Positions 34,627 through 40,891 of a stretch of 40,891 bases of DNA are shown piece by piece. The first letter of the stretch is position 1, and each line of letters starts with the position of its first letter. This stretch comes from Gemmatimonadota bacterium (GTDB lineage Bacteria; Gemmatimonadota; Gemmatimonadetes; JACCXV01; JAHWKZ01): the NCBI GenBank assembly GCA_025937815.1, contig JAICQP010000006.1, positions 1 through 40,891 of the forward strand. Direction: 5' to 3'. The notes under the pieces are model-generated. The model saw only the letters and a program-made list of their open reading frames with translations, searched no databases and was not told the DNA's origin. Position numbers and translations under genes: made by a program.

Positions 34627-35127
34627 ATGAAGGGAGTTCTTGGACGGTGGTCGATCGCCGCAGCCGTGGCCGCCACGACCATCGCGGGAAGCCAGGCACT
34701 GGCGCAGGATCTTCCCGGGGAAGCCGAGCGTGCCTTCGAAGAGGTCTACGCGGCCTTCTCGGCCGCCTACCGCGCGGGAAACCCCGAGGGGGTGGCGGCC
34801 CTCTATGCGGAGGACGCGTTCTACCTCGCGCCGGGAGGCGAGATCGAGCGCGGGGACGTGGTCCGGCATTTTGGCTTCCTGTCCTCTGTCCAGCCGGGCG
34901 CGGGGCCCGTGATCGATTTCGAGGTCGTCGACCGGGGGATCTCGGGCGACCTCGCCTACGACATCGGGTACTTCACGTTCCGGCGAGACGGCGATCCGGC
35001 GGAGAGCGCGGGGCGGGGGAAGTTCATCGTCATCTGGAAGCGGGGAGAGGACGGAGTCTGGCGGATCCACGCCGACGGGTACAGCGACGTCGAGGAACCG
35101 GACGCGCCGGCCGTGGAGGGGGAGTGA
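34627..35127 (+). CDS. Secreted SnoaL/DUF4440-like protein
   Basis: A 166-residue exported protein. The Sec signal (about 1-27) ends at Q-A-L-A-Q. The mature domain is a single NTF2-like fold: an N-terminal helix pair (A-F-E-E-V-Y-A-A-F-S-A-A-Y), the typical G-V-A-A-L-Y-A-E-D-A-F-Y-L-A-P-G-G segment, and the ending K-F-I-V-I-W-K-R-G-E-D-G-V-W-R-I-H-A-D. That pattern matches DUF4440/SnoaL-like proteins closely. The TAGGAGG ribosome site, 8 bases upstream, is one of the best in the window. It follows the DUF420 gene by 16 bases and overlaps the CcmD-like gene. Function unknown. Confidence 0.85.
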   Translation: MKGVLGRWSIAAAVAATTIAGSQALAQDLPGEAERAFEEVYAAFSAAYRAGNPEGVAALYAEDAFYLAPGGEIERGDVVRHFGFLSSVQPGAGPVIDFEVVDRGISGDLAYDIGYFTFRRDGDPAESAGRGKFIVIWKRGEDGVWRIHADGYSDVEEPDAPAVEGE

Positions 35128-35279
35128 CAGAGGCCACGTTCGCCATCGTGTACGCGGTTCTGTGGGGCGTGTTCTTCGTCTGGCTGTTCCGGCTGGGACG
35201 GCAGTCGAGGAGGCTTCAGGATACGACCCGGGCGATCAAGCGGAACCTGCACTCGGGGTGGCCGGACCCGGAGGGATGA
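35124..35279 (+). CDS. CcmD-like small membrane protein
   Basis: A 51-residue protein from a GTG overlapping the preceding stop (GTGA). One transmembrane helix at about 5-24 (A-I-V-Y-A-V-L-W-G-V-F-F-V-W-L-F) is followed by a basic segment (R-L-G-R-Q-S-R-R-L) and a short helix. This is the layout of CcmD-family proteins, which in cytochrome c maturation release holo-CcmE from the CcmABC complex. No other ccm gene is in the window, so it may belong to a ccm system elsewhere, or the match may be superficial in so short a protein. It ends the ctaA-to-CcmD-like run. Confidence 0.65.
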   Translation: MTEATFAIVYAVLWGVFFVWLFRLGRQSRRLQDTTRAIKRNLHSGWPDPEG

Positions 35280-35296
35280 TGGCTCCCGGGGATTGA

Positions 35297-35387
35297 TGGC
35301 GGAGAGGGCGGGATTCGAACCCGCGAGACGCTGTTAACGTCTACGCGATTTCCAGTCGCGCTCCTTCGACCACTCGGACACCTCTCC
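35297..35387 (-). tRNA. tRNA-Ser (GGA anticodon)
   Basis: A 91-base class II tRNA with a long variable arm; CCA is encoded. On the minus strand the acceptor GGAGAGG pairs with CCTCTCC. The anticodon stem GCGAC/(G)TCGC-type arm reads CGCGA-CTGGAAA-TCGCG, giving anticodon GGA, which reads TCC and TCT (Ser). The variable arm contains AGACGTTAACAGCGTCT. The T arm GGGTTCGAATCCC is standard. Its variable loop shares GTTAACAGC with the second serine tRNA. Confidence 0.95.
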
Positions 35388-35673
35388 GCAGAGCCAAAAG
35401 CTACTTCAAGATCTTTCCGAAGACCTTTTTCGGATGGCGCCGAACCCCCCAGCTGGGGTGGGATGGGCGCCTTCGGCGCTAAACCCCACCCTGGTGGGAT
35501 GGGCGCCTTCGGCGCCATCCCTTCGCTCGCCGCGGGGCATTCGGACCATCCCCGTCTCCACGGCGGGCCTCCGGCCCGCTGAGATCGCCGATCGACGAGA
35601 TCCGGCGAGCGAGCTCGCCTCCTCTCGTCGGATCGGCGACGCGCCTCTTCGAGGCGCTTCGTGGAGACGGGGA
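35388..35673. other. 286-bp palindrome-rich spacer between two tRNA-Ser genes
   Basis: There is no protein-coding signal. It contains CCCCAGCTGGGG (35447-35458), two copies of a 23-bp direct repeat (35457-35479 and 35493-35515), and an imperfect hairpin at 35496-35521. After that comes a large cloverleaf-like palindrome at 35546-35676. The first 50 bases (35388-35436) hold only a weak short inverted repeat. Read from the minus strand, the spacer lies directly 3' of tRNA-Ser(CGA). Confidence 0.8.
35457..35515. repeat. Pair of 23-bp direct repeats with internal hairpins
   Basis: The same 23 bases occur at 35457-35479 and 35493-35515 (GGTGGGATGGGCGCC, then TTCGGCGC). Each copy contains the hairpin GCGCC-TTC-GGCGC. 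The second copy extends into an imperfect stem with ATCCC at 35517-35521. The copies start 36 bases apart. Confidence 0.9.
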
Positions 35674-35676
35674 TGG
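35546..35676. repeat. 131-bp cloverleaf-like palindromic element
   Basis: A perfect 17-bp outer stem pairs 35546-35562 (CCATCCCCGTCTCCACG) with 35660-35676. Inside are three hairpins with almost no linker. One is GCGGGCC-TCC-GGCCCGC (35563-35579). The second is a 15-bp stem with one bulged base, 35586-35600 with 35623-35638, capped by GGCGAG-CGAG-CTCGCC. The third is GCGCCTC-TTC-GAGGCGC (35641-35657). The outer stem's right arm ends in the TGG that encodes the CCA of tRNA-Ser(CGA). It could act as a structured RNA, a terminator or a mobile palindromic unit. Confidence 0.9.
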
Positions 35677-35764
35677 CGGAGGGGGTGGGATTCGAACCCA
35701 CGATACGCTGTTAACGTATACCGGTTTTCGAGACCGGCGCCTTCAACCGCTCGGCCACCCCTCC
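35674..35764 (-). tRNA. tRNA-Ser (CGA anticodon)
   Basis: A 91-base class II tRNA with encoded CCA. On the minus strand, acceptor GGAGGGG pairs with CCCCTCC. The anticodon arm CCGGT-CTCGAAA-ACCGG gives anticodon CGA, which reads TCG (Ser). The variable arm contains ATACGTTAACAGCGTAT, and the T arm is GGGTTCGAATCCC. The CCA bases are shared with the arm of the adjacent 131-bp palindrome. Confidence 0.95.
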
Positions 35765-35803
35765 ACGGAAGGGGCCTGAATATCGCCAGAGAGGGTCGGC
35801 GAT

Positions 35804-36259
35804 TCAACCGCGGCGCGCGCGGAAGAAGTCCTTGAGGAGAGCGCCGCAGTCGGCGGCGAGAATGCCGCTGAAGATCTCCACTCGATGGTTGAGGCGAGGA
35901 TCGGTGGGGATGCTGGCCAGGCTGCCGCACATGCCGGCCTTGGGATCGGCGGCGCCATAGACGAGCCTGTCGATGCGCCCCAGCACACAGGCCCCCGCGC
36001 ACATCGCGCACGGCTCGAGCGTCACGTAGAGGGAGACGCCGATCAAGCGCCACGAGCCGAGCGCGGCCGCGGCCTCGCGAATGGCCAGCATCTCGGCGTG
36101 CGCGGTCGGGTCCTGGAGCTCCTCGGTCCGGTTGCGCCCGCGGCCGACGATCCCGCCCCCCCGAACGGCCACGGCCCCCACGGGAACCTCGCCGCCCGCC
36201 AGCGCGGCGCGCGCCTCTTCGAGCGCGACCTCCATCCATCGCCCGTGCTCAGCGAGCAT
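35804..36259 (-). CDS. tadA: tRNA adenosine(34) deaminase
   Basis: Zinc enzyme that converts A34 to inosine in the ACG anticodon of tRNA-Arg, and is normally essential. It has 151 residues, the usual size. The catalytic H54-A-E56 (P-T-A-H-A-E-M-L-A-I) and P83-C84-A-M-C87 (E-P-C-A-M-C-A-G-A) are intact, with the start region P-V-G-A-V-A-V typical of the deaminase fold. The ATG overlaps the stop of the large glucan synthase-like gene by one base (TGATG), so it may be translated with it; the frame upstream lies inside that gene. It is followed by the tRNA-Ser pair. Confidence 0.95.
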   Translation of the reverse strand: MLAEHGRWMEVALEEARAALAGGEVPVGAVAVRGGGIVGRGRNRTEELQDPTAHAEMLAIREAAAALGSWRLIGVSLYVTLEPCAMCAGACVLGRIDRLVYGAADPKAGMCGSLASIPTDPRLNHRVEIFSGILAADCGALLKDFFRARRG

Positions 36260-39200
36260 CAGCCCAGCGTTACGCGGATGCGATGCTGGCGGCCGTCGTC
36301 GACGAGCTGGATGCGCGCCCCTCTCCCGGGCTCCAGTGAAGCGTCTGCGCCGTCGTCGGGGAGGGAGGCGTCCGCTCCCAGAGCGCGCGGGGCGGCGTGC
36401 TCCCGCACTCCGTGGGGCACTTCGCGCCCGTCGACCTCCACCCGCTGGATCCCGCGCATCACGCCGAGCGGATTTTCGACGTCGATCTCGTAGCGCGACG
36501 AATGATAGGCGAAGGATATCCGGAACCCCGGCCAGTCGCGGGGGATGCAGGGGTCGAGGTGTAGCCTCTCGCCTCGCAGGCGAAATCCCAGGATCCACTC
36601 GATTCCCGCGCGATACATCCAGCCGGCCGATCCGGTGTACCACGTCCAGCCCCCGCGGCCGAGGTGCGGCGGCTCGGCGTACACGTCCGCCACCGCGGCG
36701 TAGGGCTCGACCTTGTAACGGTAGATGCCCGCGCGGGTGGACGTCTGGTTGATCGGATTGAGGATCGAGAACAACTCGGCCGCCTTGTCGCCCTCACCGA
36801 GCTCGGCGAAGGCGATCACGGACCACAGCGCGGCATGTGTGTACTGCCCGCCGTTCTCCCGCACCCCCGGGAGGTAGCCTTTGATGTAGCCGGGGTCGAC
36901 GTCCCAATTGTCGAATGGCGGGGTGAACAGCAGAACCAGGCCGTCGCCGCGCCGGATGAGGTACTGCTCGACCGCCCGCATCGCCTGCTCGGCGCGCGGA
37001 GCCGGGGCCGCGCCGGAGATCACGCCCCAGGACTGCGCGATCGAGTCGATCTTGCACTCCTGGCTGGAAATCGATCCGAGCGGCGTTCCGTCGTCGAAGA
37101 ACGCTCGTCGATACCAGTTCCCGTCCCAGCCGTGAAGATCGATGGCGTCGTCGAGGTCCCGAAGCCAGTCCCGCCACCGAGCGATGCGTTCGGCGTCCCC
37201 CCGCTGCTCGGCCAGCGGCAAGAACCGGCCGATCGTCAGATGGAGGAACCAGGCCAGCCAAACGCTCTCCCCCTGGCCCTCGTCGCCGACCCGGTTCATG
37301 CCGTCGTTCCAGTCCCCGGACCCCATGAGCGGGAGGCGGTGCGGGCCGAGCCCCAGGCTGATGTCGATCGCGCGCGCGCAATGCTCGTACAGCGTCGCGC
37401 TCTCGGTCGAGGGTTCCGGCTCGAAGTATCGCTCGCTTTCGCCCTCTTCCAGCGCCGGTCCCTGGATGAACGAAGCCTCCTCGTCGAGGATCTCCACGTC
37501 CCCTGTCACGTCGAGATAGTGGACCACCGCGAAGGGCAGCCATCCTCGGTCGTCGCTGAAGCGCGTTCTGACCCCGCGTCCGGACGGCGTGTGCCACCAG
37601 TGCTGGACGTCTCCCTCCGGGAACTGGCGGCCAGCGCAACGCAGCAGGTGCTCGCGCACGATCTCGCGTCGCGAGACGATCAGCGCGGTCACGTCCTGGA
37701 GCTGGTCGCGGAAGCCGTAGGCCCCGCCGGACTGATAGAACGCCGAGCGCGCCCAGACCCGGCAGCTGAGAGTCTGATAGAGGAGCCAGCGGTTGAGCAT
37801 GATCGTCATGGACTCGTCCGGGGTGCTCACCTTCACAGCGTCGAGCACGTCGTCCCACATCGTGCCCACGCGCTCGAGAACCGCGTCCAGGTCCACAGTC
37901 CGGTATTCTGCGACCAGCCGACGCGCCTCCTCCGCGTCCGCACCCTGTCCGAGCAGCAGCACGACCTCCGCCGAACCGCCCGCGGGCACGGTGATCGGCG
38001 CGCGAAGCGCCGCGCACGGATCGAACCCCCCGCCGACCGAACCCGACAGCTCGACGTCGGGCTCCATCCCCGCCGGGTAGGACAGGCTCCCGTTCCGGCC
38101 AAGGAACTCGGAGCGGTCCGAAGTCCATGAGCTCTGCCGTCCCCGCATGTCGACGAAGGCCACGCGGGCGCCGAACTCTTCCGACCAGCGATTGTGTACG
38201 AAGAGCGCCCGTGTGGCTTCATCGACCTCCGTCCAGACGAACGGCGCGGAGGCCTCCCGGAGAACGCCTAGCACCCACTCGATGTAGGCGGTCACGGTAA
38301 GACGACGCGGACCGTCCGAAAGGTTTCGGATGACCAGCCGCGAGATCTTGACCGGATCATCGGGAGGAACGAACAGGACCAGTTCGAGCGCGATGTCGTG
38401 GCTCTGGTGCTCGAAGCGGGAATAGCCCTGACCGTGCCGGATCACGTAAGGGGTCGTCTCGCGGATCGGTAGCGGAGTAGGGGTCCAGACGGTCCCGGAC
38501 TCCTCGTCGCGCACGTAGAGCACCTCCCCCGGCGGATCGTTCACCGGGTCGTTCGACCACGGGGTCAAGCGGTTCTCGCGGCTGTTGCGTGCCCAGGTGA
38601 AGCCCGACCCGGATTCCGACAAGGTGAATCCGAAGTCCGGGTTCGCGATCACGTTGATCCATGGCACCGGCGTCCACTGGCCCTCGCCGAGCACCGTCAC
38701 GTACTCGCGCCCGCCCTCGGCGAAGCCTCCCAGGCCGTTGAAGAACGACAGCTTGAGGCGCGGCGGCGGGGCCTCGGGCTCCTGTTGCGCCGGGGGCTGG
38801 GCGGGAGCGGCGACGTACTCTTCTTCGCGGATCGCAGCTTCGAGCTGCTCGGCCAGCGACCCGTGGTGGCTGAGGAGGACGGCTCGGGCCGCCGAGCGTA
38901 TCAGGTCGCGGTCTTCCTCGGAGAGCTGATCGCCCCGGAGGATGAAGACCCCGCCGTGCGCCTCGTGTCCCTGATGGGCATGCGACCGACTCACCCGCAC
39001 TACCCGCTCCAGCCAGTCCTGCAATTCGTCGGTATACGAGAACTCGTGCTCGTTGAGGATGACCAGATCGACCGCCACACCCTTCCACCCCCAGTACTCG
39101 TGGGCCCGAAGCAGCTGCCGGACGATATCGCGATCGCGTATCTGATCGATGCGAGCGAGGACGATCGGCAGATCGCCCGAGATGCCGTGCCGCCAGAGCG

Positions 39201-40891
39201 CGCGCTGGCCGCCGGTCATGCGCGCCAGAACGTTGGCCGGCGGACGCAGAGCGGGGTCGAGATAGAAGATGCGGCTCGCCAGTCGCTGGAAGAGATGCGC
39301 CTCGTTCGCCGAGATCCCGAAGTGATGCAGCAGCACCTGCGCGTGGGTCCACGCCAGCGCCGCCTCACGCTCGAAGATCGCCGGGTCGTGATACTTGTCG
39401 GCCAGCGCTAGTGCCTTTTCGCGCGAATCCGCGACCAGGGTGGAGAAAGTCACGACGGCCGTCTCACCCGGCCGCACGCGGACCGTGCGCCGCAGGCTGA
39501 AGATGGGGTCGAGCACGGCGCCGGTGGTATTGGAGAGCGGGCGTCCGTCGACGATCGTGCTGGGGGCGCGGATGCCACGCCCGCGGTCCAGGAACCGGGC
39601 GCGGTCGGTCTCGTACTGCACCGATTCCATGGACCCGCCCTCGATGGCGGCCACGTGAACGGCCCAGATCGGAAGGTCCTCGGAGGAGCGCGGACGGCGT
39701 GTCGCGAGGAGCCCCCCATAGGTAGGAACGAACTCCGTCTGGACGAAGAGATTCTGGAACGCGGGGTGGGCGGAATCGGCCGCCGGCGGCGAGAGCACGA
39801 TTTCGGCATAGCTCGTGAGCTCCAGGAAGCGTTCGCGCGATCCCAGGTTCTTGATCGAGACACGCCGCAGCTCGCCGTCGTCCTCGGGGGAGACGATCAC
39901 GTCGAGCGTCGTGGCCAGGGATGAATCGCGACGCCGGATCTCGACGCGATCCTCCATGAACGCCGCTTCGTAGCTCTCGGCTGCGACCGTGGTCGGCTGA
40001 TGGCCGGCCGACCATATCGAGCCCGTTGAAACATCGCGGACATAGATGAACGTTCCCCAGGAGTCGCGTGTGGCGTCCTCACGCCAGCGGGTGACCGCCA
40101 GGTTCCGCCAGCGGCTGTATCCGGCTCCCGCGTTGGTCACCATCACGCTGTAGCGTCCGTTGGACAGGACATGTGTCCGGGGCGTGCGCTCGTGGGGTGT
40201 GTGGAAGCGGCGCTCGACGGGCGGCACCACCTCGCGAACGTGGCGCACCGCATGGACTTCTTCGGCGCGGGGCCTCTGCACGGCGACGTCTCGCGGCACG
40301 CGCTCCTGAAGCAGCAGGTCGTGCGCGCCGATCACGGGCACGCGGTGGAACCTGCGGCGCATGATGCCACCGTGCAGGGTGTTCGCCAACGCGAGCACCG
40401 TCATGCCCTGGTGGTGAGCCATGTACGCCTTGACCACCGCCGCCCTGCTTCCCTGGGGCAGGCGCTCTGGTGTGTAGTCGATGGCCTCGTAGAACCCCAT
40501 GGAGCCCCGCGCGCCTTCTTCGGCGAGGCGCCTGAAGTTCCGGGCGGCCGATCGCGGCGCGACCATCGCGGCCAGTGCGGTCGCGTACGGGGCGATGACG
40601 AGATCCTCGGACAGGCCCCGGGTCAGGCCGAGTCCCGGCACCCCGAAATGCGAGTACTGGTAGGTGAGCTCCAGGTCACGCGCGTTGTAGGCGGACTCGG
40701 AGATTCCCCACGGCACGCCGCGCTCGGCTCCATAGCGGATCTGGCGCTGGACGACGAGCTGCTTGGTTCGCTCCAGAAGCGTCTCCGGAGCGCCCTGCAT
40801 GATGAGATGGGGCATGAGATACTCGAACATCGAGCCCGACCACGAGAGGAGCGCCGCGTCGCGTCCGACCGGGGTGACGGGCCGGCCGAGG
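36259..40891 (-). CDS. ndvB: Cyclic beta-1,2-glucan synthase-like protein, C-terminal part (5' end cut)
   Basis: The last about 1543 residues of a very large NdvB/ChvB-type protein; full family members are about 2800. The visible part begins inside the glycoamylase-like (cyclisation) domain, with S-G-S-M-F-E-Y-L-M-P, G-V-P-W-G-I-S-E-S-A-Y-N-A-R-D, F-G-V-P-G-L-G-L-T-R-G-L and A-Y-M-A-H-H-Q-G-M-T. Two beta-sandwich segments of the GH94 type follow (S-N-G-R-Y-S-V-M-V-T-N-A-G-A-G-Y-S and F-F-N-G-L-G-G-F). The GH94 phosphorylase catalytic domain is last, with G-S-G-D-W-N-D-G-M-N-R-V-G (catalytic Asp) and P-G-V-R-E-N-G-G-Q-Y-T-H-A-A. The C-terminal domain presumably trims glucan length. The N-terminal GT84 transferase would lie outside the window, so the assignment to a synthase rather than a lone phosphorylase is inferred. 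Confidence 0.9.
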   Translation of the reverse strand, partial: LGRPVTPVGRDAALLSWSGSMFEYLMPHLIMQGAPETLLERTKQLVVQRQIRYGAERGVPWGISESAYNARDLELTYQYSHFGVPGLGLTRGLSEDLVIAPYATALAAMVAPRSAARNFRRLAEEGARGSMGFYEAIDYTPERLPQGSRAAVVKAYMAHHQGMTVLALANTLHGGIMRRRFHRVPVIGAHDLLLQERVPRDVAVQRPRAEEVHAVRHVREVVPPVERRFHTPHERTPRTHVLSNGRYSVMVTNAGAGYSRWRNLAVTRWREDATRDSWGTFIYVRDVSTGSIWSAGHQPTTVAAESYEAAFMEDRVEIRRRDSSLATTLDVIVSPEDDGELRRVSIKNLGSRERFLELTSYAEIVLSPPAADSAHPAFQNLFVQTEFVPTYGGLLATRRPRSSEDLPIWAVHVAAIEGGSMESVQYETDRARFLDRGRGIRAPSTIVDGRPLSNTTGAVLDPIFSLRRTVRVRPGETAVVTFSTLVADSREKALALADKYHDPAIFEREAALAWTHAQVLLHHFGISANEAHLFQRLASRIFYLDPALRPPANVLARMTGGQRALWRHGISGDLPIVLARIDQIRDRDIVRQLLRAHEYWGWKGVAVDLVILNEHEFSYTDELQDWLERVVRVSRSHAHQGHEAHGGVFILRGDQLSEEDRDLIRSAARAVLLSHHGSLAEQLEAAIREEEYVAAPAQPPAQQEPEAPPPRLKLSFFNGLGGFAEGGREYVTVLGEGQWTPVPWINVIANPDFGFTLSESGSGFTWARNSRENRLTPWSNDPVNDPPGEVLYVRDEESGTVWTPTPLPIRETTPYVIRHGQGYSRFEHQSHDIALELVLFVPPDDPVKISRLVIRNLSDGPRRLTVTAYIEWVLGVLREASAPFVWTEVDEATRALFVHNRWSEEFGARVAFVDMRGRQSSWTSDRSEFLGRNGSLSYPAGMEPDVELSGSVGGGFDPCAALRAPITVPAGGSAEVVLLLGQGADAEEARRLVAEYRTVDLDAVLERVGTMWDDVLDAVKVSTPDESMTIMLNRWLLYQTLSCRVWARSAFYQSGGAYGFRDQLQDVTALIVSRREIVREHLLRCAGRQFPEGDVQHWWHTPSGRGVRTRFSDDRGWLPFAVVHYLDVTGDVEILDEEASFIQGPALEEGESERYFEPEPSTESATLYEHCARAIDISLGLGPHRLPLMGSGDWNDGMNRVGDEGQGESVWLAWFLHLTIGRFLPLAEQRGDAERIARWRDWLRDLDDAIDLHGWDGNWYRRAFFDDGTPLGSISSQECKIDSIAQSWGVISGAAPAPRAEQAMRAVEQYLIRRGDGLVLLFTPPFDNWDVDPGYIKGYLPGVRENGGQYTHAALWSVIAFAELGEGDKAAELFSILNPINQTSTRAGIYRYKVEPYAAVADVYAEPPHLGRGGWTWYTGSAGWMYRAGIEWILGFRLRGERLHLDPCIPRDWPGFRISFAYHSSRYEIDVENPLGVMRGIQRVEVDGREVPHGVREHAAPRALGADASLPDDGADASLEPGRGARIQLVDDGRQHRIRVTLG

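Follow-up and report, generated by a model that had tools for sequence, protein, structure and literature searches.

The DNA directly 3' of tRNA-Ser(CGA) in this Gemmatimonadota genome carries a cloverleaf palindrome. At about even confidence, it is best explained as a MITE-like non-coding palindromic repeat, genus-restricted as far as was searched, that copies onto the 3' ends of tRNA-Ser genes and is probably transcribed as a pre-tRNA trailer. Both the mobilisation and the RNA role are what we infer from the comparisons below. The tRNA carriers differ and yet the shape survives letter changes, which argues for a small palindromic repeat rather than a chance fold. The window is the whole stretch of DNA that was analysed (40,891 nucleotides). 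This genome (G000) was compared with a second genome of the same genus (G001) and with four other relatives of the family or order (G002 to G005).

The cloverleaf was folded on the minus strand, which is the tRNA strand. The sequence-only reading of a 131-bp cloverleaf with a perfect 17-bp outer stem and three hairpins was confirmed, with 17 of 17 outer pairs being Watson-Crick. The outer stem encloses hairpin 1 (7 bp, triloop GAA), then a middle arm whose 10 + 7 pairs contain one bulged base and which ends in a 6-bp top hairpin, and lastly hairpin 3 (7 bp, triloop GGA). The linkers are 2, 0, 4 and 0 nt. Most hairpins carry cGNAg triloops (GAA, GGA, GCA) on the tRNA-sense strand. In the passage of PMC6479982 that cites Yoshizawa et al. 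(1997), hairpins of the cGNAg type are described as extraordinarily stable DNA minihairpins. Folded as RNA, the cloverleaf reached a minimum free energy of -106 kcal/mol; dinucleotide shuffles averaged -61.5 +/- 4.3 (z = -10.3, 0/200), so the earlier statement that the structure is too ordered for chance holds. Folding as DNA gave -63.5 (z = -10.5) and folding of the plus strand as RNA gave -102.6 (z = -10.0). Among 2038 tiles of 131 nt from the plus strand of the window (mean -52.5, sd 8.0), the lowest-energy tiles overlap the element. The position given by ARAGORN for tRNA-Ser(CGA) (Table 1) makes the encoded CCA the first three bases, and hence the first three pairs, of the outer stem, and places the element 3' of the gene in the tRNA sense. 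The CCA-encoding bases therefore do lie in the right arm, as had been noted. The CCATCC of the left arm, which had been taken to mimic a tRNA 3' tail, reflects nothing more than the inverted repetition of the right arm.

Table 1. Features of the element and of the two adjacent tRNA-Ser genes (window positions).
Feature	Position	Strand	Remarks and evidence
tRNA-Ser(GGA)	35297..35387	-	element-free in G000, filled in G001
TTCGGCGCCATCC	35432..35444	-	pairs with 35508-35520, closing a second palindrome over the tail; inverted repeat I5, fold
tail hairpin H5	35460..35485	-	second, degraded H4-like unit, 3 mismatches; inverted-repeat and H4 near-match scans
tail hairpin H4 GGGATGGCGCCGAAGGCGCCCATCCC	35496..35521	-	follows all four copies; alignment, fold
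spacer with weak small hairpin (GCCCCGCGGCGAGC)	35522..35545	-	common to the G000 GCT copy, shorter relative in G001; alignment, fold
cloverleaf palindrome	35546..35676	-	starts with the CCA of the tRNA, element proper from TCCC at 35673; folds, second copy, covariance model R1 150 bits
outer stem 3' arm CGTGGAGACGGGGATGG	35546..35562	-	sequence, fold, inverted repeat I1
hairpin 3 GCGGGCC-GGA-GGCCCGC (cGNAg triloop)	35563..35579	-	fold
middle arm, conserved top GGCGAG-CTCG-CTCGCC	35584..35640	-	fold, copy comparison
hairpin 1 GCGCCTC-GAA-GAGGCGC (cGNAg triloop)	35641..35657	-	fold
outer stem 5' arm CCATCCCCGTCTCCACG	35660..35676	-	sequence, fold
tRNA-Ser(CGA)	35674..35764	-	CCA encoded 35674-35676; ARAGORN; Rfam RF00005 62.2 bits

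The span first reported for the cloverleaf, in plus orientation, is correct, but two things had been missed: the palindromic unit extends past 35546 to about 35432, through further hairpins, and the neighbouring tRNA-Ser(GGA) is element-free. A copy is made up of a cloverleaf (about 125-131 bp) and, after it, one or two hairpins based on GGGATGG/CCATCCC. CCATCCC starts every copy, GGGATGG/CCATCCC is repeated in the tail, and the 'GGGATGGCGCCGNAGGCGCCCATCCC' hairpin tail is common to the copies. Near-matches to H4 numbered four in the whole G000 genome, all of them within the two elements.

A BLAST search of G000 gave one further copy (G000:C1:215-344), fused to tRNA-Ser(GCT). The two G000 copies have 89% identity by BLAST; counted over aligned bases, the figure is 92.6%, and the alignment has 4 gap columns. 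Two copies were found in G001, after tRNA-Ser(CGA) (69.9 bits) and tRNA-Ser(GGA) (59.3 bits). In total, the two genomes carry four copies, two each, at three tRNA-Ser loci. For G000, 38 tRNA genes were listed; among the tRNA 3' regions listed for it, the element was present after Ser(CGA) and Ser(GCT) only, and when 83 non-redundant tRNA 3' regions were ranked, the longest closing stems belonged to three element copies. The element was absent from the tRNA-Ser(GGA) of the window and from tRNA-Ser(GCT) and tRNA-Ser(TGA) of G001. DNA and covariance-model searches gave no copy in G002 to G005, and the tRNA-Ser loci inspected in G002, G003 and G005 had none. Covariance-model searches of about 390 genomes of the class and about 395 of the phylum, with eight candidates per genome scored, gave nothing beyond the genus; this selection limits the sensitivity of the wide search, and the class-wide run missed the known GGA copy of G001. 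The plasmids and phages searched gave no match. In viral contigs, the H4 hairpin had 0 matches and the outer-arm pattern 21, none with a tRNA or a cloverleaf.

Several candidates were rejected. The loose pattern CTCCGCCATCCC-N-GGATG, used in a genome-wide contig scan, gave no cloverleaf among the 80 loci examined from the matches listed. Loci outside G000 and G001 that were found class-wide with the top-loop 16-mer had no tRNA. A match of 25 bits in G358 had no nearby tRNA and a sequence unlike the element, and was judged to be due to chance. A match in G001:C221 was an unrelated 20-bp hairpin. Beyond the four known copies, matches to a class-wide tRNA-end pattern (e.g. TTCGACTCCCGCCGCCTCCATCCC, in one distant genus) were not palindromic by eye. 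G001:C221:3134-3178 has a long GC-rich hairpin, GACCCCGCCTCCCCGC...GCGGGGAGGCGGGGTC, and no tRNA lies close to it. In this genus, gene ends may commonly carry long hairpins.

Two of the three loci are polymorphic: GGA is empty in G000, GCT is empty in G001, and both genomes have the element at CGA. The CGA/GGA pair has the same genes around it, in the same order, in G000 and G001. Synteny of Ser(GCT) with gltX is found in G000, G001, G002 and G003, and the element in G000 only. A filled and an empty site could be paired: the flank beyond the Ser(GGA) copy of G001 matches the sequence directly after the element-free Ser(GGA) of G000 (86% over 78 nt). This insertion polymorphism supports mobility. 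Direct repeats resembling CCATC lie on either side of the units. No clean target-site duplication was found; the empty sites have diverged too far for the borders to be fixed. At the Ser(GCT) locus of G003, an ordinary hairpin with a run of T was observed, unlike the filled G000 locus.

The orthologous CGA copies of G000 and G001 are separated by 42 gap columns, and the surrounding orthologous DNA is 72-76% identical. Since the G000 copies resemble each other far more than the orthologous CGA copies do, copying after the species split is likely. The G001 copies have identical outer stems and hairpins 3 and different middle arms; the distance between them is only a little smaller than their distance from the G000 copies. 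Because of the different middle arms, the evidence for copying within the G001 lineage is weaker than for G000. The simplest history starts from an ancestral copy at CGA, from which GCT received its copy later, in the lineage of G000. Alternatively, all three loci may once have been filled and one lost per lineage, with gene conversion in addition.

The four copies were aligned by hand according to their structure. Pairs changed on both sides (compensatory changes) number about nine, against one one-sided change to a G-T wobble and at most two breaks at the stem tip; the copies being few and related, these changes are strong for structure and are not a formal test. Three further 'COMP' rows, which reflect indel register, were left out. 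The two-sided changes sit at outer stem pairs 10, 11, 12 and 14, hairpin 1 pair 4, hairpin 3 pairs 1, 2 and 5, and one pair of the middle arm. The outer stem has 15-17 bp in all four copies. The sequence-only reading had proposed a search for other copies in the same and related genomes and for compensatory changes; both were found, the opposite of the outcome it had set against itself. In 4/4 copies, the fold of the tRNA-sense strand is more stable than that of the antisense strand by 3-7 kcal/mol, and the sense fold has 1-2 G-U pairs per copy and no 1x1 A-C mismatches. This slight preference hints weakly at a role as RNA. Such a role, and the new structured RNA that had been suggested, would agree with the conserved fold, but maintenance of the palindrome at the DNA level could also give it.

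These data bear on another reading, in which the element is a selected structured 3' trailer of pre-tRNA-Ser (a terminator without a U-tract, or a processing or stability signal) spread by gene conversion between tRNA-Ser genes. We hold it to be possible, if doubtful. The two-sided pair changes, the better sense fold of all four copies and the GNA triloops on the sense strand are in its favour. In G000, the GCT copy is placed where a terminator would be useful, with the tRNA on one side and, on the other, a gene whose end faces the tRNA, and G001 has other long GC hairpins. However, the other tRNA-Ser genes of the same genomes, and all the family and order relatives checked, are without the element, the cloverleaf itself has no Rfam match, and the asymmetry between strands concerns very few positions. 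A terminator-like hairpin followed by a T-run was also lacking: 0 were found on either strand of 35000-36000.

The two-sided changes could also arise without selection if the element were a neutral palindrome, its arms kept alike by mutation (template switching or quasi-palindrome correction) and copied by ordinary homologous recombination, with no function and no dedicated mobility. Arm-to-arm correction is an established mechanism, described for yeast quasi-palindromes in PMC3820800. The presence of every copy on a tRNA-Ser gene and the almost identical stretch common to tRNA-Ser 3' ends at the left edge fit this explanation, but the layout, hairpin sizes, top-loop GGCGAGCTCGCTCGC and GNA triloops are kept while stem sequences change. 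Arm correction by itself does not keep a layout of several arms intact, nor does it set the boundary on the right, and we consider the neutral palindrome quite unlikely. An assembly artefact or a chance fold is hardly credible. The assemblies are drafts (264 and about 250 contigs), but the same architecture is found in two separate assemblies, at syntenic loci and in diverged sequence, and the shuffles never approach the energy of the cloverleaf.

The element was compared with known systems. It resembles palindromic repeats and MITEs and, to a lesser degree, REPs; REP/RAYT, intrinsic terminators and Rfam families were rejected. With bacterial MITEs and small palindromic repeats (Correia/NEMIS, RPE, YPAL/RU-2; PMC2229807, PMC10969869) it shares a non-coding unit of 100-200 bp, terminal inverted repeats (here the 15-17 bp outer stem of each copy), strong RNA hairpins and presence/absence between relatives. 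It differs from them in being GC-rich, in its copy number (two per genome, with 2/3 loci polymorphic), in its four-arm layout and in its confinement to tRNA-Ser 3' ends. The word 'tRNA' appears in neither of these two reviews. Literature searches among open-access papers yielded no description of a family confined to tRNA-Ser 3' ends. REP/REPIN with RAYT and CGTC-tagged REPs (PMC3733652) also have palindromic hairpins and dimers in inverted order, and terminal tails, mostly CCA, are reported for CGTC REP elements (PMC3733652). The genomes here, however, are without a Y1/RAYT gene and have two loci each, not a large family, and the four copies have neither a conserved GTAG tag nor a CGTC tag. 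The search for transposases covered Y1/RAYT (PF01797) and gave a hit in 0/6 genomes (G000 to G005), with control genomes positive.

Intrinsic terminators are similar in having stable GC hairpins right after a gene, but the element is a three-hairpin cloverleaf with no T-run, and sibling tRNA-Ser genes are without it. The rtT repeats lie immediately 3' of E. coli tyrT tRNA-Tyr genes and are co-transcribed with them, as a tandem array carrying a copy of the tRNA 3' end. The element is likewise a repeat directly 3' of a tRNA gene, but it is one cloverleaf palindrome spread over different tRNA-Ser loci, with no Rfam rtT match, and a tandem copy of the tRNA 3' end was not found beyond a short GCCATC motif. 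At the gathering score, Rfam gave tRNAs only. Below threshold, sX4 (RF02223; gathering score 70) was observed at both tRNA-Ser genes (35277-35396, 27.0 bits; 35613-35787, 41.9 bits). The sX4 model seems to contain a tRNA-Ser-like part.

For the MITE-like repeat, the following course is proposed. An ancestral copy would have been present on tRNA-Ser(CGA) in the genus, and each lineage would then have copied it onto another tRNA-Ser 3' end, by a recombination or transposition step specific for tRNA-Ser/CCATC or by recombination via the shared tRNA-Ser 3' sequence. Insertion would be tolerated because the tRNA is left intact. Transcription would make the element a very stable trailer of the pre-tRNA, requiring an endonucleolytic cut, and the trailer cloverleaf may stall or end transcription. 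The mobile palindromic repeat targeting tRNA ends that had been suggested gains from the further copies, all on tRNA-Ser 3' ends, and from the insertion polymorphism; the many copies that had been expected came to two per genome in two genomes, which counts against mobility, typical MITE and REP families being far larger. The lack of a Y1/RAYT transposase in G000 to G005 and of a clean target-site duplication weighs in the same direction. A more specific proposal, which we find rather improbable, is a kind of element that colonises the CCA end of tRNA-Ser: the cloverleaf RNA or ssDNA, starting with the CCA of the tRNA, would itself be the substrate of the copying step onto other tRNA-Ser ends, and the fold, not the sequence, would be selected.

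If confirmed, the element would be a compact example of a palindromic repeat for which a tRNA 3' end serves as a safe place to land, and which encodes no protein and keeps its fold through sequence turnover. As a tractable system, it would allow one to ask whether RNA selection, DNA-hairpin mobility or arm-to-arm correction lies behind the compensatory changes of bacterial palindromes, and would show how pre-tRNAs are processed when their CCA is locked in a 17-bp stem.

Other features of these loci were recorded. The tRNA-Ser(CGA) and tRNA-Ser(GGA) genes are in tandem, 377 bp apart (window 35297-35764). No tRNA-Ser(TGA) was present among the G000 tRNA genes, probably through assembly incompleteness. 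In G002, the CGA and GGA tRNA-Ser genes are on one contig, about 9 kb apart, with relatives of tadA and of the GH94-like gene described next nearby. On the minus strand of the window, a reading frame of 1523 aa (36259-40830), which we take to resemble cyclic beta-1,2-glucan synthase/GH94 proteins, has a G001 counterpart that is 81% identical over 1380 aa.
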